The translations under genes were made by a program, and so were the position numbers. Of a DNA stretch of 64,000 nt, positions 8,537 through 64,000 are shown piece by piece. The notes beneath the pieces were generated by a model that saw nothing but the letters and a program-made list of their open reading frames with translations, made no database searches and was not told the origin of the DNA. Source of the DNA: an uncultured Verrucomicrobia subdivision 3 bacterium (GTDB lineage: Bacteria > Verrucomicrobiota > Verrucomicrobiia > Limisphaerales > UBA11358); NCBI GenBank assembly GCA_903865745.1, contig CAIPKV010000059.1, positions 1-64,000 of the forward strand, read 5' to 3'. Each line of letters begins with the position of its first letter. The first letter of the stretch is position 1.

Positions 8537-8683
8537 GAACAAAAAACATTTCTATGGCAATAGAAATCATTTTTGTTGCAACAAAAGTCATTTCCATTGG
8601 AAGGGAAACCATTTTCCTTGCAACAAAAGTCATTTTTCTTGCAATAGAAATCGTTTTTGTTGGCTTGGAAATGGGTTTTTGGT
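8537..8683. repeat. Degenerate 21-bp tandem repeats, cluster B
   Basis: Seven units of exactly 21 bp; five clean ones start at 8558, 8579, 8600, 8621 and 8642. The pattern is CAA-n-n-GAAAnTCATTTTn-n-TTG. Each unit is roughly palindromic and every junction reads TTG|CAA or similar. On the minus strand the period appears as heptapeptides such as NDFYCKK and NDFCCNK, but no start signal or family supports translation. The A and T tracts recur every two helical turns. It lies in the divergent region between hpnG and the DUF748 gene. Confidence 0.85.
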
Positions 8684-22483: not shown

Positions 22484-22840
22484 AGTGCAATTAGCTGCCG
22501 TCGGAAGGCGTTTATTAGGCGAATGAACGGGTTTACCTGCCGGTTGAAGCCCTTTACCTCGCGGGTAAACGGGTTTATTTGCCGACTAAACCCGTTTAGC
22601 ACGCCGGTAAACGGGTTTAACCGCCGGGGAAACCCGTTTAGTTGCCGGTAAAGGCAATTACCCGTCGGGTAAACGTAATTACCCTCGGTATAATCGCGAT
22701 TATACTGCGGGGAAACGTCTTTATACCGCGGGTAAACGCGTTTCCCCGCGGGGTAAATGGGATTACCTGCCAAGTAAACGCATTTAGCTCGCTGCTAATC
22801 GGCTTTAGTTGGCAACTAAATGCGTTTAGTTAGCAGCGAG
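22484..22840. repeat. Degenerate 21-bp tandem repeats, cluster C
   Basis: About 17 units of 21 bp fill the gap between two convergent genes; 15 can be laid out without gaps from 22526 to 22840. The pattern is (TA)AAC-G-n-GTTTA-n4-GCCGG-TA, so each unit boundary forms a near-perfect dyad TAAACGnGTTTA. Conserved and variable positions alternate regularly. Minus-strand translation gives heptapeptides such as LNPFTGV, LNGFSRQ and INPFTRE, merely reflecting the period. Confidence 0.88.
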
Positions 22841-23947: not shown

Positions 23948-24022
23948 TGGTGGGCACTGAGGGATTCGAACCCCCGACCTTCTCCGTGTAAAGGAGCAGC
24001 GCTACCACTGCGCCAAGCGCCC
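23948..24022 (-). tRNA. tRNA-Val (anticodon TAC)
   Basis: Read on the minus strand, a cloverleaf begins GGGCGCT and ends AGTGCCC-A-CCA, giving a 7-bp acceptor stem with one G-U pair. The D arm (GCGCAGTGGTAGCGC), the anticodon loop TTTACAC (anticodon TAC) and the T arm GGGGGTTCGAATCCC are intact. The CCA end is encoded. It lies 10 bases after tRNA-Met on the same strand. Confidence 0.95.
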
Positions 24023-24032
24023 AAATCCAAAA

Positions 24033-24109
24033 TGGTGCCAGCGAGTGGAATCGAACCACTGACCTCGGGCTTATGAGTCCCACGCTCTAACCAACTGAGC
24101 TACGCTGGC
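24033..24109 (-). tRNA. tRNA-Met (anticodon CAT)
   Basis: The minus strand gives an acceptor stem GCCAGCG / CGCTGGC followed by A and an encoded CCA, a D arm GCTCAGTTGGTTAGAGC, anticodon loop CTCATAA (anticodon CAT) and T arm GTGGTTCGATTCCAC. It lacks the initiator-type C1-A72 mismatch, so it is an elongator Met or a lysidine-modified Ile tRNA; bases alone do not settle which. It is encoded just upstream of tRNA-Val. Confidence 0.92.
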
Positions 24110-26873: not shown

Positions 26874-27071
26874 TCAATCTTGAAAGAAACCCCACCATTG
26901 CCGTGTCTAACTGTATCCTTCGGACATATGTTGCCATATGTGGGACTCGCCCGGCGGCTTACAACTTTCGGGCAATGCCGACGTGCTGGCCACCGTCTGC
27001 GGCTCATCCCGAGTTCGTTTTAATTACGGTCCAAGGACTGTTGCGAATCACGAACAGGGCAGGGAAATTGA
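26874..27071 (-). ncRNA. ssrS: Candidate 6S RNA
   Basis: The minus-strand RNA of about 198 nt folds by eye into the 6S layout. The closing stem is UCAAU/AUUGA, CCCUGCC/GGUGGGG and CGUG/CACG. It leads to a central bubble bordered by GUCCUU/AAGGAU and GGAC/GUCC. The 3' side of the bubble carries a 7-bp hairpin ACAUAUG-GCAA-CAUAUGU. A terminal stem begins ACGAACU-CGGG/CCCG-AA-AGUUGU. The 5' CCCUGCCCUGUUCG text resembles 6S RNAs. Length, the bubble, the following terminator and the position directly upstream of rarA agree. 6S RNA sequesters sigma-70 RNA polymerase. I ran no covariance model. Confidence 0.62.
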
Positions 27072-27229: not shown

Positions 27230-30200
27230 TCACTTACCCGTCTGACCGTCGAGATTTTTCCGGATGATGGCGGCAATGGCCTCGGGCTTGAACGGTTTGC
27301 GGATGAAGTTGACACCCTCGGTGAGCGTGGCGTGGCGACCCTCCAGATTGCCGGTGTAGCCGCTGGTATAAATAACTTTCAGCGACGGCTTGTCCGCCAG
27401 TAGTTGGTGACCCAGTTCAATGCCGTTCAGGTTTTCTGGCATGATGATGTCGGTGAACACGAGTTGAATGCGGTCGCGGTGTTGTTGCCAAATCTTCAGT
27501 GCGGCCGGGCCGGACTCAGCCTCCAGCACGGTGTAGCCGCAACGTTGGAGCAGGTCGCTGACAAAGGTGCGCAGCGGGAACTCATCCTCCACAAGCAGGA
27601 TGGTTTCATCGCCCCACGGCAACACCGACTTCAGCTTGGCTTCAGATTTTTCCGTCTGGGCCGGGGCGACGATGGTAAAGAAGACGTTGAAGGTCGTACC
27701 CTTGCCGATTTCGCTCTGCACCGTAATTTCGCCGTGATGCTGCTGCACAATGCCATAGACGGTGGCAAGGCCAAGGCCGGTGCCCTTACCCACTTCCTTG
27801 GTTGTAAAAAACGGCTCGAAGATGCGCGGCAAGATTTCCGGGGCAATGCCCGTGCCAGTGTCAACCACGGATAAGCAGACGCGGTCCGTCGGCTGGCAAT
27901 TTTCCACCCGGGTGCGGATGGTGAGCCGGCCGCCGTCGGGCATGGCGTCGCGGGCGTTGACGGCGAGGTTGAGGATGATTTGCTCGATCATGCCGACGTC
28001 GGCATGGACGAGCGGCAGCGCGGGCGCGTATTCCGCCTGAAGCGAGACGTCTTCGCCGAGGATGCGCTGAAGCATCTTGGTCATCTGCGAAACCGTCTCG
28101 TTGAGGTCGAGGTTGACCGGCTGCATCTGCTGTTTACGGGCGAACATCAGCAGTTGGCGCGTCAGGCCGGCCGCGCGTTCGCTGGCGCGCGCAATCTGGT
28201 TGGAACAATCGCGGATTTCCGACGGTTGTAAATCAAGCCCCTGCAACAGCGCGGCGTTGCCTTGAATGACGGTGAGAATGTTGTTGAAATCATGCGCGAT
28301 GCCACCGGAAAGCTGGCCGACGGCTTCCATCTTTTGCGACTGGCGGAGCTGGGCCTCGAGATTTTGCCGTTCTTTTTCGGTGCGAATTTTGTCGGTGATG
28401 TCCGCGACGATGGACAGGCAGCCGCAAATTTGACCGCTCGCGTCGCGCCACGGTGTGTTGCGCCATTCGCAAGTCAGCCGGCGTCCATTCTTGGTCACGT
28501 TTTCATTAATGGAATGGCTGGCCACGTTCCCGGATTGAATAACCTCTTTCCAAATTCTATCTATGTTTGGTTGGACTTCCGGCGGCACAATCAGTTTGTA
28601 GGCGTGCTGGCCCATGGCCTCGGTGGTGCTCCAGCCGAATATCTCCTCGGCGGCATGGTTCCATTCCGCCACGCAGAAATCGCGGTTCCACGCGATGAAC
28701 GCCAGCGGCATCCGGTTCATGTAAAACTGCGTGCGCTCGACGGCCTGGCGCAACTCTTCTTCCATCCGCCGGCGCTGGGTGATGTCCTGTTTGATGGCGA
28801 CGAAATGCGTAACCCGGTTTTTGCCGTCATGCAGCGGCGAGATGGTCATGTCCTCCAGATAATAGCTGCCATCCTTGCGGCGGTTGATGATTTCGCCGTG
28901 CCAGACCTTGCCGGCCAGAATAGTCTCCCACATCGCCTGATAATATTCCCGGCCGTGCTTGCCGGAGCGGACCAGTTCGCGCGGGTTTTTCCCGAGGCAT
29001 TCGGCGAATGCGTAACCGGAACTCGCGGTGAACGCCGGGTTAACCCACTCGATGATACCCCGTGCATCGGTGATGAGGATCGAGTTGGCGGCCGTCTCCA
29101 GTGCGAGGCTTAGCAGGCGCATGGATTCTTCCGCGAGCCGCTGCTTCGTGATGTCGCGGCCGATGCCGACCAAGCCGGCGACTTTGCCTTGCGGGTCGCG
29201 GAAGGCCACCATATTCGTCACCACCGTGCGGTGCTCGCCGTCAGGAAAAGTGATGTCGTCCTGATTGGTGCAGAAGGTTTTTGATGTGAGCACCATCGCT
29301 TCGCTCGCGCGGAAGTATGCCGCTATTTCCGGCGGCAAAAATTCAGCGTCCGAGTGGCCCAACATTTCCGCTGGCTCCTTGCGGTAACAGCGGGCAATCG
29401 AATTGTTGGCAATCAGATAGCGGCTTTCCAGGTCTTTGACAAAAATGAAATCCGGCGCGAGATCAATCAGCGTGCGTAACAGCTGCCGCTCATGCTCCGT
29501 GGACTTTTCCGCTTGCAGCTGCTTCGTCACATCGCGAAAACTCCAGACACGGCCGATAATTTTATCCCCAAGCTGTTGCGGGCGCGAGACGCGGTCGAAT
29601 ATCCGGCCGTCCTTGAAATAAATCGTGTCATAGGATTCCTCTGCGGGCTGCCGGTACAGTTCCTGGACGCGCTTTAGAAAAGCTTCCGGTTCCTGAAGCT
29701 GCTCTAGCACCACGGAAAGAATCGTCTGCTCGTCGTTTTGCGCCAACAGTTCGGGCGGAACGCGCCACATTTCGAGGAAGCGGTTGTTGTACGTCGTGAT
29801 TTTGCCCGTTGTGTCCACCACGAGGATACCGCTACCGCTGGACTCAATAGTCGTGCGCAGAAGCGAAATGGATTGCGCGAGCTGATCCTCGTATTCCTTG
29901 CGTTCGCTGATGTTGCGCACCAGCGCAGCGAACAAATGCTGCCCCTGCAGTTCGTAGCGGGTCAGACTGACTTCCACGGGAAAGGTCGTACCGTCCTTGC
30001 GTCGTTGCCGGCCGCGTAAAGTCTCGGAATGGCCGGGCTTGATTTGCCGCCACAGCAGCTGCAGCTCTTCCAGCGGAGTGTCTTGTTCCAGGTCTGCCAC
30101 CGTCATCCGCAGCAGTTCCTTGCGCGTATAGCCCGAACTCTCGCAGGCGCTCCGGTTCACGTCGATAAAATGTCCGTCGGGGCCATGCACAAAAATCGCG

Positions 30201-31000
30201 TCGGAGGCTTGCTCTACCAGGGTCCGGAAACGTTCCTCGCTCACGCGCAAGTTTTTCTCGGCGCGCGCCTTGATGATGGCGGTGGCCGCCGTGTGCGTCA
30301 CCAACTCGATAATCCGGACATCCTTGTCCTCGGGGAGACCGGTCTGGTCATGATAAATGGCGAACGTGCCGAGCACTTTGTTCTGCTCATCCAGAATCGG
30401 CGTGGACCAGCACGAACGCAACTTATGCGGCAGCGCGAGGTGCTTGTAATCCGTCCACAACGGATCATGCGCAATGTCTTCGACAAACACTGGTGAACCC
30501 CGGTAAGCCGCCGTGCCGCAGCTGCCCACTTTCGGACCGACCGCCACCCCGTCAATCGCGTTCACGTATTCCGCCGGTAGCGACGGCGCCGCGCCGTGCC
30601 GCAGATGCAGGCCATCCGGGTCCAGTAGCAAAATTGACGCCCGCAGTTCCCGCGTTTGCGCCTCGATACCGCGCAGTAGCGTATCCAGTGTATCTTTCAG
30701 CGGCTTGCCGCTGGCAATCATCTGCAGCGTCTGGTTTTGGAGCTGCGTCAGGGCGTCCGCCGCCTTGAGTTCCGCAATCTTCTGCGCTTCACCCCTCAGC
30801 GCCTGCCGCACGATGAAATACATGATGGCCATCGTGAACAACACGAATACCACATCATTAACGGTCTCCATCCGCATCAGCAGCCGCTTGTCTTTGATGA
30901 ACTGGTCTAAAAGATCATCGGAAAAATACGCCCAAACTGCTGCGATGATGCCGTATAACAGGCTCGCGCGGAATGCCACCTTGCTGGAGGTATGGTTCAT
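27230..31000 (-). CDS. Hybrid sensor histidine kinase with GAF, PAS repeats and receiver domain
   Basis: This protein of about 1256 residues begins with two membrane helices (about 10-30 and 48-66), then a GAF domain (about 95-240; [21 protein letters not shown]), four or five PAS domains (for example [25 protein letters not shown]), a HisKA domain with the phospho-acceptor in [17 protein letters not shown], a HATPase domain ([36 protein letters not shown]) and a C-terminal receiver ([25 protein letters not shown]). It is probably a stand-alone signalling protein. The open frame continues antisense through alaS to 32323; I chose the ATG at 31000, where the first helix begins. Confidence 0.88.
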
Positions 31001-31126
31001 GGGAATAAATTGACGCTGGCAGTATGTTTCAACCCCGCCGCTTTTGCAACCGGCACCGAGCAAAACTTCCACTCGCTTGCCCACCCCCGTTCTGCTACCG
31101 TCTTCGCTCAATTTTGTCTGATAACC

Positions 31127-34126
31127 ATGACCACCAGCACCCAGATTCGCAAAGACTTTCTCGATTTTTTTAAGTCGAAAGCGCACACCATCGTTCCCTC
31201 GTCCTCGCTGATGCCGGACAGCCCCAATCTCCTGTTCACCAACGCCGGCATGAACCAGTTCGTGCCCATCTTCCTCGGCCAGACCAAGTGCCCCTACACC
31301 CCCGGCCGCGCCGCCGACACCCAGAAGTGCATCCGCGCCGGTGGCAAGCACAACGACCTCGACGACGTCGGCCTCGACACCTATCACCACACCTTCTTCG
31401 AGATGCTCGGCAACTGGTCCTTCGGCGACTATTTCAAGCGCGAAGCCATTGATTGGGCGTGGGAACTCGTCGTCGGCATCTGGAAATTCCCGCCGCAACG
31501 CCTCTACGCCACCGTTTACAATCCCGACAAGACCAAGCACGACCCCAGTGACTTCGACCAGGAAGCGTGGAACTTCTGGGCGGAGAAATTCCGTTCCGTC
31601 GGCCTCGACCCCGCCGTTCACATCGTCAACGGCAACAAGAAGGACAATTTCTGGATGATGGGCGAGACCGGCCCGTGCGGCCCCTGCTCCGAACTCCACG
31701 TGGACCTCACGCCCGCTGGCGACACCAAAGGCGCGCTCGTGAACAAAGGTTCCCCCGCGTGCATCGAGATTTGGAACCTCGTTTTCATCCAGTACAACGC
31801 CAATCCCGACGGCACGTTCTCCCCGCTGCCGGCGCAGCACGTGGACACCGGCATGGGTTTTGAGCGCGTGACCTCCATCATCCAAGGCACGAAGAACTTC
31901 ACCGATTTCGCCAACGCCAAGATTTCCAACTACGAGACCGACATCTTCCGCCCCATTTTCGATGTTTTGGAGAAAATGAGCGGTAAAACCTATCGCAGCA
32001 CCCTCCCAGTGTCCCAAAGTGGGGCAAATCCGCCTTTTTCCGGCCCCAACGCTCCCGCCGTTGGGCCCAATGCCGCCGTGGTTGGGGCCAATCCTCACAC
32101 TATTGGGGCCAATGCTCCCGCCGTTGGGACCAATCCTCCCATGGTTGGGGCCAATGACGCCACCGTTGGGTCCAATCTCCCCACGGCTGGGGCCAATGAC
32201 GCCGCCATTGGGGCCAATCTTCCCACCGTTGGGGCCAATCCTCCCGCCATTGGGGCCAATCTTTCTACCATTGGGGCCGACCAAATTGCCGTGGACATCG
32301 CTTTCCGGGTCATCGCGGACCATATCCGGACGCTCAGCTTCGCCATTGCTGATGGCATCCAGCCCGGCAACAACGACCGCAACTACGTCCTGCGCCGCAT
32401 CCTGCGCCGCGCCGTCCGCTACGGCCGCACGCTAGGCTTCAAGGAACCGTTCTTCTACAAGCTGGTGGATGTGCTGGCCGACACCATGGGCGACGTCTTC
32501 CCCGAGATTCGCACCCGCAAGAAAGTCGTGCAAGAAACCATCCGCATCGAGGAAGAGGCGTTTAATAAGACGCTGGATAGGGGAATTGCAATGTTTGAAG
32601 ATGCGGTTGGTCTAATAAATTCTGGCGAAGTGGTTCTTCAACAAATTCCGAATAGTGATAAAATGGTTGCTGCTTCGGTTGCTAAAGAAATTGATGCCAA
32701 CTTTGCTTTCATGCTTTACGACACTTACGGCTTCCCGCTCGACCTAACCGAGTTGATGGCGCGCGAACGCGGTTTGACCGTGGACACCGCAGGTTTTGAA
32801 AAGTTGATGGAAGAGCAGCGCGCCCGCGCCCGCGCCGCGCAGAAGAAGGAAGTCATTTCCCTCTCGCAAATCGAGACCACCACGCCCACCAAGTTCGTCG
32901 GCTACGACGCACTCGCCGTGCCGGCCAAGGTGCTGGAAGTCGTTTCGCTCAAGGATAAGACCGCCGTCATTCTCGATACCAGCGCGTGCTACGCCGAGAT
33001 GGGCGGCCAGGTCGGCGATACCGGCGAGCTGACCGGCAGCGGCCAGCTCTGGCGCATCGTCAACACGCAGAAGTCCGGCAACACCTTCCTGCACTTCGTC
33101 GAGGGCGGCGATGCCCCCGCCATCGGCGCCGGCGTAACGTTGTCCGTCGAGAAGTCGCGCCGCGATGCCATCCAACGGCATCATACGGTGACGCATCTGC
33201 TGCATTGGGCGCTGCACGAAGTCGCCAGCAAAGAGGCTTCGCAGAAAGGTTCCTTCGTCGGCCCGGACAAACTGACCTTCGATTTCAACAGCGCGCCGCT
33301 CACGCCCGCGCAGGTCGCCGACATCGAGAAGCTCGTGAACGAACGCATCGTGGAGAACGCCGGCGTCTCGTGGACGGAAGTCGCCCACGCCGACGTGAAG
33401 GCGCGCAAGGACGTGATGCAATTCTTCGGCGATAAATACGGCGACACCGTGCGCGTGGTCCAAATCGGCGGCGGCGCGGGCAAGTTGGATGGCTATTCCA
33501 TGGAACTCTGCGGCGGCACGCATACGCGCGCGACGGGCGAGATTGGTCTGTTCCGCATCGTCAGCGAAGCCGCCGTGGCGGCAGGCGTTCGCCGCATCGA
33601 AGCCGTCGCGGGTCTGACGGCTTACGACCTCGCCAATGAACAGTTGCAACTCATCAAGAGCATTGCCGCCAAAATCAATTCGCCCGTCGGCGAGTTGGAA
33701 AAGAAAGTTGAGGCCCTCCTCGCGCATCAGAAGGAACTCGAGAAGGCGCTGAAGTCTGCCCAGCAGCGCGAGGCATCCAACGCCGCGAGCAATTTGCTGG
33801 AGTCGGTTCACACCATCAACGGTACGCCCGCTATCATCCACAATGTCGGCGGCGTGGACGGCGACTTTTTGCAAGGCATCGTGGATGCGCTGAAATCGCA
33901 GTTCAAAGGCGTGGTCGTGCTCGGCGGCGCGGCGAATGGCGCGGTCACCTTGATCGCGTCGGTCTCCGCTGACTTCACCGCCAAGGTGCAGGCGGGCAAA
34001 ATTATTCAAACCATCGCGCCCATTGTTGGCGGCAAAGGCGGCGGCAAGCCCGACCACGCGCGCGGCGGCGGCAAGGACGCCACCAAGCTCGACGAAGCGC
34101 TAGCCAAGGCGAAGAGCTTGCTCTGA
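31127..34126 (+). CDS. alaS: Alanyl-tRNA synthetase with a heptapeptide-repeat insertion
   Basis: AlaRS charges tRNA-Ala. The 999-residue protein has the aminoacylation domain (QIRKDFLDFFKSKAHTIVPSSSL; TGMGFERV), the AFRVIADHIRTLSFAIADG helix, the editing domain (HHTVTHLLHWALH and CGGTHTRATGEIG) and a C-Ala domain ending in GKGGGKPDHARGGGKD. Typical AlaRS has about 875-900 residues. The excess is explained largely by residues about 299-382: twelve seven-residue units (GANPPFS, GPNAPAV, GANLPTV and so on) in the loop between TDIFRPIFDVLEKMSGKTY and AFRVIADH, encoded by 21-bp DNA repeats. I chose the ATG at 31127; an upstream frame to 30992 lacks homology. Confidence 0.95.
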   Translation: MTTSTQIRKDFLDFFKSKAHTIVPSSSLMPDSPNLLFTNAGMNQFVPIFLGQTKCPYTPGRAADTQKCIRAGGKHNDLDDVGLDTYHHTFFEMLGNWSFGDYFKREAIDWAWELVVGIWKFPPQRLYATVYNPDKTKHDPSDFDQEAWNFWAEKFRSVGLDPAVHIVNGNKKDNFWMMGETGPCGPCSELHVDLTPAGDTKGALVNKGSPACIEIWNLVFIQYNANPDGTFSPLPAQHVDTGMGFERVTSIIQGTKNFTDFANAKISNYETDIFRPIFDVLEKMSGKTYRSTLPVSQSGANPPFSGPNAPAVGPNAAVVGANPHTIGANAPAVGTNPPMVGANDATVGSNLPTAGANDAAIGANLPTVGANPPAIGANLSTIGADQIAVDIAFRVIADHIRTLSFAIADGIQPGNNDRNYVLRRILRRAVRYGRTLGFKEPFFYKLVDVLADTMGDVFPEIRTRKKVVQETIRIEEEAFNKTLDRGIAMFEDAVGLINSGEVVLQQIPNSDKMVAASVAKEIDANFAFMLYDTYGFPLDLTELMARERGLTVDTAGFEKLMEEQRARARAAQKKEVISLSQIETTTPTKFVGYDALAVPAKVLEVVSLKDKTAVILDTSACYAEMGGQVGDTGELTGSGQLWRIVNTQKSGNTFLHFVEGGDAPAIGAGVTLSVEKSRRDAIQRHHTVTHLLHWALHEVASKEASQKGSFVGPDKLTFDFNSAPLTPAQVADIEKLVNERIVENAGVSWTEVAHADVKARKDVMQFFGDKYGDTVRVVQIGGGAGKLDGYSMELCGGTHTRATGEIGLFRIVSEAAVAAGVRRIEAVAGLTAYDLANEQLQLIKSIAAKINSPVGELEKKVEALLAHQKELEKALKSAQQREASNAASNLLESVHTINGTPAIIHNVGGVDGDFLQGIVDALKSQFKGVVVLGGAANGAVTLIASVSADFTAKVQAGKIIQTIAPIVGGKGGGKPDHARGGGKDATKLDEALAKAKSLL
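32021..32293. repeat. Degenerate 21-bp tandem repeats in alaS, cluster F
   Basis: Twelve full units of 21 bp plus a partial one share the core TTGGGGCCAAT, itself a dyad (TTGG-n2-CCAA), followed by a C/G-rich variable part such as CCTCCCGCC. The phase keeps alaS open, giving G-[APTS]-N-x-x-x-[VI] heptapeptides. The antisense strand is also stop-free here (repeated IGPNGGx), which is why an antisense frame crosses it. Codon choice in the units differs from the surrounding gene because the core is fixed at DNA level. Confidence 0.92.
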
Positions 34127-45926: not shown

Positions 45927-48008
45927 GTTTTGCCTTCCCCCCAGAAGTGCATCGGATAAAATGATGCTGAGTGGCACTCATGAGAACTCGAGGTTTTGCC
46001 TTCCCCCCAGAAGTGCATCGGATAAAATGAGGCCTTTCAGTTCAGCTTCCACGAACTCGTTTTGCCTTCCCCCCAGAAGTGCATCGGATAAAATAGCATC
46101 GAGCTGTTCCGCGTCTGGGTGAACGTTTTGCCTTCCCCCCAGAAGTGCATCGGATAAAATCTAGTTTCTCAGGACCCGGAAAAGGTCGATGTTTTGCCTT
46201 CCCCCCAGAAGTGCATCGGATAAAATGGGCAGGCCGTCGGCGCGGACGCATTTGAGGTTTTGCCTTCCCCCCAGAAGTGCATCGGATAAAATCGCACGGC
46301 ACGAGCCTGCAAATCACCCGCGGTTTTGCCTTCCCCCCAGAAGTGCATCGGATAAAATTGACTGCCTGCAACTGTGAGTTGATTCCTAGTTTTGCCTTCC
46401 CCCCAGAAGTGCATCGGATAAAATACCATCTTCGGTAGAAACGGTGGACCCGTCGTTTTGCCTTCCCCCCAGAAGTGCATCGGATAAAATCCGACGGTTC
46501 GTCTGTCGGCGTCGTCACGCGTTTTGCCTTCCCCCCAGAAGTGCATCGGATAAAATGCAAACTGAATTTTACCGGCAGCGCAACGCGTTTTGCCTTCCCC
46601 CCAGAAGTGCATCGGATAAAATGGGGTGGAACATGGGATGTCTTAGGTATTAGTTTTGCCTTCCCCCCAGAAGTGCATCGGATAAAATGTATCGGACAAT
46701 GCTACCCGGAGCACCAACGTTTTGCCTTCCCCCCAGAAGTGCATCGGATAAAATTGCGGCGGGAAATTATGAAGCGGTGAAAGCGTTTTGCCTTCCCCCC
46801 AGAAGTGCATCGGATAAAATTGTTGCTCGCGACACCCCAAATGCCATCGAGTTTTGCCTTCCCCCCAGAAGTGCATCGGATAAAATGACCATATTGCGAT
46901 TGACGCCGGGGGTATGGTTTTGCCTTCCCCCCAGAAGTGCATCGGATAAAATGAGCTGGTGACGTTTGAGGCTGAGGGTCCTGTTTTGCCTTCCCCCCAG
47001 AAGTGCATCGGATAAAATTCCTGAATATCTGTTCCTGTCCGCATTTGCGTTTTGCCTTCCCCCCAGAAGTGCATCGGATAAAATCCTGTAACTGCGTTTG
47101 TGCTGGGCTGTGCAGTTTTGCCTTCCCCCCAGAAGTGCATCGGATAAAATCCCACAGGGAACGGGTCCGTACTGGACCGCGTTTTGCCTTCCCCCCAGAA
47201 GTGCATCGGATAAAATGCATTGGGTTCTTTCCAATCAGCTACGCCAGTTTTGCCTTCCCCCCAGAAGTGCATCGGATAAAATACGGCGTGGATCAGCCCG
47301 TGAGCACGCCGCGTTTTGCCTTCCCCCCAGAAGTGCATCGGATAAAATATCAAGATTGCGCCCGGATCGTAATTGGCCGTTTTGCCTTCCCCCAGAAGTG
47401 CATCGGATAAAATTAGAAGGTTGTTGTTGATGATGCGGCACCGGTTTTGCCTTCCCCCCAGAAGTGCATCGGATAAAATAAACCTTCCGCTGTTAGCAGA
47501 CCAAAAAACGTTTTGCCTTCCCCCCAGAAGTGCATCGGATAAAATTTGCAGGCGTTGTGCAGACGGCATCACGTAGTTTTGCCTTCCCCCCAGAAGTGCA
47601 TCGGATAAAATTGAGCTTTGATTCTGGCACCCGTCAGTACGGGTTTTGCCTTCCCCCCAGAAGTGCATCGGATAAAATTACCCTTCATTCCACTACTGTT
47701 CACCTCATGTTTTGACTTCCCCCCAGAAGTGCATCGGATAAAATTGGCAAGATTCTGCCGCATTCAACATTGCTGTTTTGCCTTCCCCCCAGAAGTGCAT
47801 CGGATAAAATTGCGAAGGCTGCACGATGAACCCAGTCCATGTTTTGCCTTCCCCCCAGAAGTGCATCGGATAAAATGTCGGCTCGGTGGTTTATCGGCCG
47901 GATGTGGTTTTGCCTTCCCCCCAGAAGTGCATCGGATAAAATAGCTTGCAAGATGTTATCGGCAATCCACACGTTTTGCCTTCCCCCCAGAAGTGCATCG
48001 GATAAAAT
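45927..48008 (+). CRISPR. Type II-C CRISPR array, 32 repeats and 31 spacers
   Basis: Direct repeats of 36 bp begin GTTTTGCC, contain a C6 tract and AGAAGTGC, and end GGATAAAAT. They start every 66 bp from 45927 to 47379, then at 47444, 47510, 47576, 47643, 47709, 47775, 47841, 47907 and 47973. Spacers are 30 bp except the one before 47643 (31 bp); all 31 differ. The repeat at 47379 has C5 and is 35 bp; that at 47709 has GTTTTGACTT. The tracrRNA anti-repeat matches plus-strand transcripts, so crRNAs are read towards the cas genes. Both variants lie near the 3' end, suggesting that end is older. Confidence 0.98.
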
Positions 48009-48012
48009 AGGT

Positions 48013-52674: not shown

Positions 52675-53419
52675 AGCCAAGCCACGTTTCCAGATTTCCC
52701 GATGAGATGTCTAGCCAAGGCTACGCCGATGCCCCGGCAGGTCAATCGAAATTGGGAGATAGGAGTACATCTATAAATGTAGTGCTGAGTTCTGAGTTCG
52801 AAATCGGCGAGTTTTAACTGTCCCTTATGTGGTCGATAGTGTCCCGTTTTATTTTACAGTGTCCCATTAACGGTCGGTTGGGAAAATTAAAACCGTCCCG
52901 TTCTGGGACGAAACCGGGATGTTAAAAATAAATTGAAGAAATCAGCGTTTATTTCACTTTTTAGCCGTTTCACAGCCGGTTATCGCTCCAAAACAACGGT
53001 TTATTTTGACTTCGCTGCGGTGTTTTGTTCAATGAACACGGTGTCATGTGACTTTACTGCCGGTTTTTGTGTCAGTGCTGCCTTTGTTTTTGATTTCACT
53101 GCCTTGTTAAATGATTTCACTGCGTTGCAAAATCATTTCGCTGCCTTGTTTTGTCATTTTACTGCGTTGTAAAATGATTTTACTGCCGGTTATTTTCACA
53201 TTACTGCGCTGTTTTGCCTCATTACTGCCTTTTTAAGTCATTTTACTGCGGTGTTTTCTTCCTGCACTGCCTTTTTGCCTCAAGCCGTCGTTTTTGCCGG
53301 CAAAACGTCGTTTGTGAAATTTTTCACAAATGTGGCATCGCTGATGCTCGTTATTATTTTACGCACAATTGATTGCCTGTCGGCGGTCAGTTGGATTCTT
53401 TCAGGTCTCTCTAAATGGT
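52675..53419. other. Intergenic region between cas9 and the Fn3-like gene
   Basis: About 745 bp with no convincing gene. It must contain the cas operon promoter on the minus strand. From 52818 three copies of [CG]TGTCCC spaced 21 and 20 bp (52818, 52839, 52859) form a mini-cluster, and 52952-53287 is filled by cluster D of 21-bp repeats. Short CTGAGTTCTGAGTTCG heptamer-like text occurs near 52785. Confidence 0.55.
52952..53287. repeat. Degenerate 21-bp tandem repeats, cluster D
   Basis: Sixteen units of 21 bp, clean from 53015 (53015, 53036, 53057, then every 21 bp to 53267), with pattern CTGC-[CG]-n-TGTTTT-n4-CATTT-[TC]-A. The plus-strand frame shows TALLNDF, TALQNHF, AALFCHF heptapeptides, but an in-frame stop lies inside one unit (near 53170) and the periodicity continues after it, so the period is a DNA-level property rather than protein selection. 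It sits between divergent cas9 and the Fn3-like gene. Confidence 0.9.
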
Positions 53420-61264: not shown

Positions 61265-62218
61265 TCACGCCGTCGGGGCGAGCAGCTTCAAGGAGCGGAT
61301 GCTGCCCGTCGTCGTGCCGATACCGTTCTTCACGCGGGTGCGGACATTTACCGTCTGGCCCACCGCGAATGGCCCCAGCGTGTTGCCGCTCGGGTCCACC
61401 GGCAGGCTGTTTGAAAATTTAGCGTCCGTACCCACCCGCTGCCATTCGATGGTGCTCGTGAGTGTGGCGTCGTAGCTCGCGTTGTCATAGTTCACCAGCA
61501 GATGCAACTGGTCCGTGCCGCCTTGCAAAACACTTTTGATGCCGAGCGTGACCGGCAGGTTCATGGATTCCGTGTCAATCTGGCCAAGCGCCACTTCCAG
61601 CGCGGGATTGGTGCGCGCTTCCGATTGCAGCTTCGCATAAAAATGTTTGTTCAAACGGTCCACCCCGGTGGCCGGCGTCCGCAAACCCGTGCGCGCCGAC
61701 GTCAACCCGGCGCTCGTGTCCTCGATGGCTTGTACCAAGACCGGTTGACCGGTGATCAACGCGTTCAAGTCCGTCACGCCCTTGCCGCCGCTCGTCACCG
61801 GTCCGCGTGCGGGCGTCTGCGCCGCGAGATAGGGGTTGATCAGGTCCAACGCGCTCTTGAGCTTCATGCCACGCTCCAAGGTCAGCTCCGTCGTGCGTGG
61901 AACGAGGGCGTAAACCGGCGCGAGCAGATTCAACAACGCCGATTCCGCCGGCACAGTGTCATTTAGTTCACCCTCGGCTGCGCGCGGCAGTTGCAGTACC
62001 AGGTCATGGAGCGTGGACTGACCCAGGTTCTCCGCGTTCACAGCCGCGATGTGGGCGCCCATCGCGTCGTCGCGTTTCTGCGCGAACCCATCGAGCGCAT
62101 GGGACTGCAGGAGCAAGCCCGGAGCGTCCACGGCGCCGACCTTGAGGGTGGGAATGAACTGGGTAACGACAGCCGCCGTTTGCACGGCCCGGTTTTGGTA
62201 GACTTGATAATATTCCAT
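61265..62218 (-). CDS. Uncharacterised protein with C-terminal Fn3-like region
   Basis: This 317-residue protein (start MEYYQVYQNRAVQTAAVVTQFIP) has no signal peptide or transmembrane helix. The first 200 residues are mainly helical (TELTLERGMKLKSALDLINPYL; DRLNKHFYAKLQSEARTNPALEVALGQID); the last 100 are beta-rich with an Fn3-like end (FAVGQTVNVRTRVKNGIGTTTGSIRSLKLL). In overall plan it resembles the gene at 53420-54043. Repeat cluster E starts 219 bp upstream. The function is unknown. Confidence 0.65.
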   Translation of the reverse strand: MEYYQVYQNRAVQTAAVVTQFIPTLKVGAVDAPGLLLQSHALDGFAQKRDDAMGAHIAAVNAENLGQSTLHDLVLQLPRAAEGELNDTVPAESALLNLLAPVYALVPRTTELTLERGMKLKSALDLINPYLAAQTPARGPVTSGGKGVTDLNALITGQPVLVQAIEDTSAGLTSARTGLRTPATGVDRLNKHFYAKLQSEARTNPALEVALGQIDTESMNLPVTLGIKSVLQGGTDQLHLLVNYDNASYDATLTSTIEWQRVGTDAKFSNSLPVDPSGNTLGPFAVGQTVNVRTRVKNGIGTTTGSIRSLKLLAPTA

Positions 62219-62436
62219 AAATTTTTTACGACACCTTGTTATCGCCGCCTAGCTGCTTAATAGCGAGAACCAAATTTATATATTAATCATCCCATATTTT
62301 GCCGGTGAGAAATCACAGCAGCAAACGAAGGAAACGAAGTTCGGATTTAAAAAACCGAGATTCCTTAGTTAGCTTCGTTCCTTTCTGTACAAATTCTCCT
62401 CGGACTGGTTGCTCAACCATTTATCGGCAGGAAAAA
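62219..62436. other. Upstream region of the 61265-62218 gene, no gene seen
   Basis: An AT-rich stretch containing ATTTATATATTAATCATCC (about 62272-62290) that could hold the promoter for the minus-strand gene. No conserved RNA or protein was seen. Confidence 0.4.
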
Positions 62437-62688
62437 GACGTTTACCAACCCCAAACAGACGTTTACCGGGCGCACCGGGACGTTTACACCCGGCAAACAG
62501 ACGTTTACGACCCCCGCCCGGACGTTTACGAGGGGCGAGCAGACGTTTACACCCCCCGCGCAGACGTTTACGAGGGACAAACAGACGTTTACCACCCAGA
62601 CTTGTACGTTTACGACCCCCAAGCAGACGTTTACACCCCACACTCGGACGTTTATACCCCCCGAGCAGACGTTTACCGTTTGGTGTAT
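62437..62688. repeat. 21-bp tandem repeats with an invariant 9-bp core, cluster E
   Basis: Twelve contiguous 21-bp units start every 21 bp from 62437 to 62668. Ten begin with exactly GACGTTTAC; the others have TACGTTTAC and GACGTTTAT. The remaining 12 bp differ in nearly every unit, being C-, G- or A-rich (for example CAACCCCAAACA, CGGGCGCACCGG, GAGGGACAAACA). The plus-strand frame reads TDVYRAH, RDVYTRQ, ADVYTPR, again just reflecting the 21-bp period. It lies between the 61265-62218 gene and the end of ftsK. Confidence 0.95.
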
Positions 62689-62868
62689 CAGCTATATTTG
62701 ACGCGGGTAGGCTCGCATCCGGCGGGAATAGTGGCTAAATAGCTACAGTTGGGGAGTTAGGGGAGCGGATTATCCACCGCGAACTAAGCGAAATACGCGA
62801 ACGGAGGGAAAGATTGTCCTGCCCTGTTCGCGTATTTGGCGTATTTCGCGGTTAAAGTCTTTCCCGGC

Positions 62869-64000
62869 TTACACCGCAGTCTGCGTGCCGCCGTCGGCAC
62901 CGCCGCCGTCGAGGTCGATCAGGATTTCACGTGGCTCGGCGCCTTTGCTCTCGCCCACGATGCCGCGGCCTTCCAACTCGTCCATGATGCGCGCGGCGCG
63001 GGTGTAGCCCAGCCGCAACCGCCGTTGGAGCAGTGAGACGCTGGCCTTCTGTTCGCTGCGGATGACTTCGATGCATTGCTGGATGAGTTCCTCGTCTTCG
63101 TCGGTGCCGCTCTCGATGTCGGTGTTCGCACTGGGCTTGGAGAGTTGCTGATGGATTTCCATCTCGTAGCTGGGCTTGCCCTGCTTGGCAATGAAGTTGA
63201 CGATGTCTTCCAGTTCTTTGTCGGTGATGAGCGCACCTTGCGCGCGTTTCAAATTGCCGGAACCGGGCGGCAGATAGAGCATGTCGCCCTTGCCGAGGAG
63301 CTTGTCGGCGCCCATGGCATCGAGAATCGTGCGCGAGTCCACGCGGCTCGCCACCTGGAAGGCGATGCGCGCGGGGATGTTGGCCTTGATGACGCCGGTG
63401 ATGACATCCACGGACGGCCGCTGGGTGGCGACGATGCAATGGATGCCGGCCGCGCGCGCCATCTGGGTGATGCGCGCGATGGCCATTTCGACATCGGCCG
63501 GCGCGACGAGCATGAGGTCCGCCAGTTCGTCAATGATGACGACGATGTAGGAAAGTTTTTCAGGAATGATGATGTCTTCCTCGCGCGGCACGACGATTTC
63601 TTCATCCACCTCGACGGCGAACCCGCCCGCGCCGGCCTCGACTTTTTCCTTTTTGACGGAGAGCGGCAGTTCCATTTCCTGTTCGGGCAACGGCTTGTTC
63701 TTCGGCCGTTCGTTGAAGGACTTGATATTGCGGACGCCGACGCGCGCAAAGATTTTGTAGCGCTTTTCCATCTCGTTGACGACCCAGCGCAAGGCGAGCA
63801 AAACCTTTTTGGGATCCGTCACGACGGGAACGACGAGGTGGGGCAGGGCATTGTATTGCTGAAGTTCGACCACCTTGGGATCAATCATCACGAAGCGGAG
63901 CTGGTCGGGCGAGAAGCGGTAGAGCAGGGACGCGATGATGGAATTGATGCAGACGGATTTGCCGGAACCGGTGCTGCCGGCGATGAGGCAGTGGGGCATC
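62869..64000 (-). CDS. ftsK: DNA translocase FtsK/SpoIIIE, C-terminal part (runs off the window)
   Basis: The visible 377 residues carry Walker A LIAGSTGSGKSVCINSI at the window edge, Walker B YIVVIIDELADLMLVAPADVE, the IVATQRPSVDVITGVIKANIPARIAFQV block and the C-terminal gamma winged-helix domain (ELIQQCIEVIRSEQKASVSLLQRRLRLGYTRAARIMDELEGRGIVG) that reads polar KOPS-type sequences. FtsK pumps DNA at the septum and helps resolve chromosome dimers. The 5' part, with the membrane domain, lies beyond base 64000. Confidence 0.95.
   Translation of the reverse strand, partial: MPHCLIAGSTGSGKSVCINSIIASLLYRFSPDQLRFVMIDPKVVELQQYNALPHLVVPVVTDPKKVLLALRWVVNEMEKRYKIFARVGVRNIKSFNERPKNKPLPEQEMELPLSVKKEKVEAGAGGFAVEVDEEIVVPREEDIIIPEKLSYIVVIIDELADLMLVAPADVEMAIARITQMARAAGIHCIVATQRPSVDVITGVIKANIPARIAFQVASRVDSRTILDAMGADKLLGKGDMLYLPPGSGNLKRAQGALITDKELEDIVNFIAKQGKPSYEMEIHQQLSKPSANTDIESGTDEDEELIQQCIEVIRSEQKASVSLLQRRLRLGYTRAARIMDELEGRGIVGESKGAEPREILIDLDGGGADGGTQTAV

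Follow-up and report, generated by a model that had tools for sequence, protein, structure and literature searches.

A helically phased row of twelve 9-bp direct repeats in an uncultured Limisphaerales genome: a candidate array of protein-binding sites

Iterons are direct repeats of about 17–23 bp that bind an initiator protein at plasmid and secondary-chromosome origins and are phased at about two helical turns, so phased direct-repeat binding arrays are already known. For Verrucomicrobia, 21-bp arrays were not described in the literature that we searched, an absence that proves little; nor did that literature report any chromosome on which some 250 arrays of diverse sequence have one period in common. 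Another class of repeats, the REP/BIME elements, consists of GTAG- and CGTC-tagged palindromes and was reported to be abundant in the verrucomicrobium O. terrae (PMC3733652). Here we describe an array of 21-bp units in the window, the whole 64-kb stretch of DNA that was analysed. It belongs to contig C59 of a 3.63-Mb draft genome of 87 contigs, and all sequences compared with it are draft metagenome-assembled genomes.

The array is intergenic: an FtsK-like gene has its 3' end on one side of it, and a gene for a 317-aa protein starts on the other (Table 1). Close relatives of the FtsK-like protein occur across the Limisphaerales, the closest being metagenome-assembled and from Verrucomicrobia subdivision 3. 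On the plus strand the first GACGTTTAC starts at 62437 and the last at 62668, in steps of 21 bp; ten of the 12 cores are exact, and the other two carry one substitution each (TACGTTTAC at 62605 and GACGTTTAT at 62647). This confirmed the initial annotation, which had described a 12-unit array of an invariant 9-mer with two core substitutions. In the minus-strand register the array opens with GTAAACGTC at 62676, its final full spacer ends at 62425, and ATAAATGGT follows, a half-unit that resembles the terminal units of the paralogous arrays and of a sister-species orthologue described below. Outside the array, no copy of GACGTTTAC was found on either strand of the window, against a chance expectation of about 0.5. 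A separate intergenic element, an inverted repeat made of TTCGCGTATTTCGCGG, occupies 62776-62852 and has dozens of matches in the genome.

Table 1. The array and the features beside it (window positions).
Feature	Position	Strand	Basis or remark
Gene downstream of the array, 317 aa, no Pfam match	61265..62218	minus	
Other flank, with weaker likeness to the C52 paralogue	62315..62415	minus	
Final 12-bp spacer at 62425-62436, then the degenerate terminal half-unit ATAAATGGT at 62416-62424	62416..62436	minus	Unit lists, four arrays
Array: 12 cores GTAAACGTC (= GACGTTTAC on the plus strand) at 21-bp steps and, between them, 11 spacers of 12 bp	62437..62676	minus	Sequence, tandem repeat finder, column statistics
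126-bp flank, 86% identical to C52:66449-66574 beside the paralogous array	62677..62802	minus	Whole-genome DNA search, alignment
Gene for an FtsK/SpoIIIE-like DNA translocase, C-terminal part, beyond the opposite end of the array	62869..63999	minus	Named from sequence; runs past the window end

Core and spacer differ sharply within this array. Pairwise identity between units is 96% in the core and 44% in the spacer, for which composition alone predicts 34%, and the mean information per column is 1.73 bits in the core versus 0.61 bits in the spacer. The same holds for all four arrays of the GTAAACGTC family, namely this one, two paralogues and the sister-species orthologue (1.4–1.7 versus 0.5–0.6 bits). 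The 12-mers had initially been called almost unrelated. That wording was too strong, since the spacers are patterned and A-poor: they start TGYTYG-like, and A on the core strand makes up 3 of 144 spacer bases in the array and 27 of 516 (about 5%) in the family, as against a fraction of 0.22–0.28 in the flanks. Even and odd spacers of the array alternate, giving a 42-bp period (p=0.007), and GGG or CCC occurs in 24 of the 44 units of the family (expected 18.2 ± 3.0), a mild preference.

The spacing of the units is exact. We found no indel between the 12 units of the window array and none in the 43 units of the four family arrays, where every step is exactly 21 bp. By an informal estimate, a free unit length would have given several indels, the spacers being diverged near the composition limit. 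One unit per two helical turns means that the sites would face one side of the DNA, and the phasing without indels accords with the initial proposal of putative sites on one DNA face. The likeness of units showed no clear drop with distance along the array, which argues against recent local slippage as the cause of the uniform cores.

A whole-genome scan for the 9-mer in further phased arrays revealed two more members of the family. The array at C71:23107-23283 bears the same core as the window array; in that at C52:66575-66793 the core is GTAAATGRC in 10 of 11 units, and one unit is still GTAAACGTC. Between the window and C52 arrays the spacer identity is 0.31–0.48, whatever the register, and best-match spacers resemble each other more than after column shuffling (p=0.002). 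Moreover, one C52 spacer equals one C71 spacer at 12 of 12 bases, though the neighbouring cores differ. Judged from these sequences, the near-complete core change in C52 next to a persisting spacer fits altered recognition; homogenisation of a satellite likewise yields concerted core change. The 126-bp flank exists in only two copies in the whole genome by DNA search, and the whole 489-bp region 62315-62802 is 69% identical to the C52 paralogue region. The spacers of the two arrays are far more diverged than this linked, 86%-identical flank, which faintly favours the idea in the initial annotation that spacers are actively diversified; the composition rule that they follow speaks against it. 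The C52 paralogue sits just past the 3' end of an SMC gene (L031 9577-13841) and the window array just past that of the FtsK-like gene. These placements are possibly a coincidence, the C71 copy lying between ThiC and an H-type lectin gene.

We searched 49 genus genomes for a run of cores. Apart from the window's own genome, only G049 carries one (the sister-species genome of L083, isolate 339R_metabinner_32); G022 holds one two-unit match. The G049 array, which lies upstream of the orthologue of the 317-aa gene on a contig that also carries FtsK, has 11 units and ends in a degenerate half-unit like that of the window array. Because G049 keeps the orthologous array by the same gene, the array is older than its species. 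In G064, the orthologue of the 317-aa gene (63% amino acid identity) is preceded by 356 bp free of an array, where the contig ends. Between the window and G049 arrays the core identity is 0.85–0.88 in near registers and that of the spacers about 0.4, while the 317-aa gene and its G049 orthologue are alike at 73% of amino acids, 0.74 of DNA positions and 0.58 of third codon positions. In this comparison, the core is better kept, and the spacer worse, than synonymous sites. This supports the selection on the core that had been proposed at the outset. Whether core and 12-mer change equally had been set beforehand as the test of that proposal, and the sister-species arrays gave unequal change, with the core conserved. 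Conservation of a site above neutral sites between species and exact helical spacing, two marks of a generic phased protein-binding array, are both found here.

Taken together, these findings suggest a non-coding, intergenic, helically phased row of 12 direct 9-bp sites for a sequence-specific DNA-binding protein, a reading to which we assign an even chance, the binder and its role being deduced from the pattern. Each core would most likely be bound by one unit of such a protein, which would fill the row, probably cooperatively. The 12-bp spacer would set distance and phase, avoid A on the core strand, and otherwise be free. The role may be either local, on the downstream gene, or architectural. 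Several observations count against this reading: there are only three family arrays in the genome, the site in G049 that is orthologous to C52 has no array, the other 21-bp arrays have unrelated sequences, and satellite homogenisation would also give a concerted core change.

The strongest competing reading is a functionless satellite: lineage-specific intergenic minisatellites, neutral or selfish, would be duplicated with their flanks and turn over quickly, no protein would bind them, and the uniform core would be the residue of the last homogenisation. We consider this possible, yet not probable. It draws its strength from the genome-wide class to which the array belongs. Array densities were taken from sampled genome stretches, 283 kb of them unselected for arrays. 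The unselected part comprised 49 kb of intergenic DNA, with 18 period-21 arrays, and 234 kb of coding DNA, with 2; other, unrelated periods were seen once or twice each. By extrapolation the genome has about 250 period-21 arrays. At one threshold, their density was 77/Mb in the genome's own stretches, 21/Mb in G049 and 14/Mb in other genus members, the fair own value being about 71/Mb (unselected sample) because pattern hits had guided the choice of some own stretches. At FtsK loci across the order it was 5/Mb, and period 21 was no longer prominent there. The 21-bp arrays are a lineage expansion, as expected of a satellite. With genes called by a simple coding-potential script instead of a standard gene finder, 24 of 25 examined arrays were intergenic, and where both flanking genes were known, these were convergent in 7 cases, divergent in 6 and co-directional in 6; this lack of orientation bias likewise suits a satellite. 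So do the higher-order repeats of 42 and 63 bp that occur among the arrays.

The turnover of the arrays points in the same direction. Several arrays share common flanks and have quite different array sequences, as a satellite would. In one such pair (L037 370-678 and L049 128-392), 145 bp of left flank show 97% identity and the array units differ throughout, so that array sequence changes much faster than flank. Two other window loci and the C52 locus have no array beside the orthologous genes in G049, gene order being conserved at only some of them; array presence turns over, and absence from the sister species at several loci is again what a satellite predicts. Nevertheless, four properties of the arrays sit badly with a satellite. 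Copying would homogenise the spacers along with the core, and the spacers stay near the composition expectation. The same 9-mer is kept across species, where flanks and spacers are not alignable. A neutral process also leaves unexplained both the exact period of 21 over unrelated sequences and the absence of indels.

Further arrays of similar build were noted along the way. The window itself has three more intergenic ones with a 21- or 42-bp period and unrelated sequences (8538-8662, 22505-22840 and 53040-53280), the first two dyad-symmetric. A fourth, at 32046-32278, is probably a coding heptapeptide repeat, since it lies inside a predicted long gene (27230-32323). A 41-bp period, similar in design and just off 42, was seen in an order-level relative (L174 13988-14260) and in the window's genome (L048 13990-14250). 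Two other genomes each have, in similar context, a short row in which CTGTCCGACAG palindromes follow one another at a spacing of about 22 bp (L097 22-140 and L169 22-140).

An array of DNA or RNA hairpins whose units pair with each other, be it REP/BIME-like, a terminator or a structured RNA, is improbable. Tested against a column-permutation null, most of the genome's remaining 21-bp arrays show dyad symmetry; in addition, the spacers of the window array alternate at 42 bp and fold energies lie slightly under those of shuffles (z about -2). All of this would suit pairing units. However, the GTAAACGTC family lacks dyad symmetry (p=0.46–0.88), local complementarity and covariation did not exceed shifted controls in any class, and no terminator-like site was found. 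No Rfam family covers the array, the only Rfam matches of the window being two tRNAs (Val and Met, 23948-24109) and a 6S RNA (26885-27068). The Y1 (REP-type) transposases are also unexpanded, with 2 copies here, whereas array-poor relatives have as many as 12. Further candidates were rejected. An apparent dyad symmetry of the window array vanished against the column-permutation null (score 0.40 versus 0.41, p=0.63). A terminator or promoter reading met with no terminator, one weak promoter match and mixed gene orientations around arrays. Intrinsic curvature was discarded because the A/T autocorrelation is near 0 at lags 10 and 11, leaving no 10–11 bp A/T phase.

Least credible of all are a heptapeptide repeat (DVYxxxx) in a coding frame and an array of CRISPR type with the 12-mers as acquired spacers: 21 is divisible by 3 and the frames are open, and a shared flank at one end with a degenerate last repeat at the other recalls a CRISPR layout, but in GAC GTT TAC the third positions are nearly fixed while first and second vary among paralogues, spacer differences spread evenly over codon positions (0.56/0.53/0.58) with no third-position excess, A-poor, patterned spacers are unlike captured DNA, and the immediate neighbours, FtsK-like and a protein without known family, are not cas genes. 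The window does hold a CRISPR-like array elsewhere (45927-48010), with about 31 repeats of 36 bp (GTTTTGCCTTCCCCCCAGAAGTGCATCGGATAAAAT) and spacers of about 30 bp.

Returning to the row of putative protein sites, we ask how it may relate to the genome-wide class. Each period-21 array has its own sequence. That some 250 sequence-diverse intergenic arrays have one period indicates that the period itself is what is kept, and the unrelated sequences of the other arrays imply that a single sequence-specific protein cannot serve all. We tentatively propose, as a doubtful rather than a likely case, a categorically new kind of bacterial chromosomal element: about 250 intergenic arrays per genome that would have nothing in common but the exact two-turn period of 21 bp. 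Each would have a site sequence of its own, which could be rewritten across almost every unit together, the spacers being retained, and the arrays would be read by a fast-evolving DNA-binding protein family or by one phase-sensing protein. Such elements, with their binders, would be the bacterial equivalent of fast-evolving satellite DNA and the proteins that bind it. In any case, this genome of an uncultured member of the Limisphaerales has about one array for every 2.7 kb of its intergenic DNA, and the arrays are thus a large and apparently undescribed component of the chromosome. If bound, the arrays would form a chromosome-organising or regulatory layer; if unbound, they would be a rare bacterial instance of expansion in the manner of satellites. 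In both cases, concerted change of core sequence can be studied in them as a natural experiment.

In summary, the array shares features with four described systems and differs from each in others. Like iterons, its 12 units of 21 bp lie in one orientation on one strand, at a phase of about two turns, with a conserved core and a variable remainder. In contrast, iterons have their initiator gene adjacent, where here the neighbours are FtsK-like and a 317-aa protein without Pfam match, and there are many unrelated arrays per chromosome here and no sign of an origin. REP/BIME elements are, like the arrays here, intergenic, dispersed, clustered and expanded by lineage, and the core contains CGTC; they are palindromic stem-loops of 20–40 nt, whereas the window array is non-palindromic and in strict 21-bp head-to-tail phase. 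Furthermore, each array here has its own sequence and no Y1 transposase expansion accompanies them, the window's genome having 2 PF01797 (Y1, RAYT-type) genes, below many relatives with few arrays. CRISPR arrays resemble it in that repeats are constant and spacers variable, one end has a shared flank and the last repeat is degenerate, but their repeats of about 23–50 bp and unique spacers of similar length differ from a 9-bp core with a 12-bp, composition-restricted spacer. Eukaryotic satellites that carry a protein box, for instance alpha satellite with its CENP-B box, also place a conserved site (a protein site there, a putative one here) in diverging tandem units, and satellite DNA shares the higher-order repeats and lineage-specific turnover; the arrays here are bacterial and short, have a 21-bp unit and a putative binder, and are spread over some 250 intergenic places.
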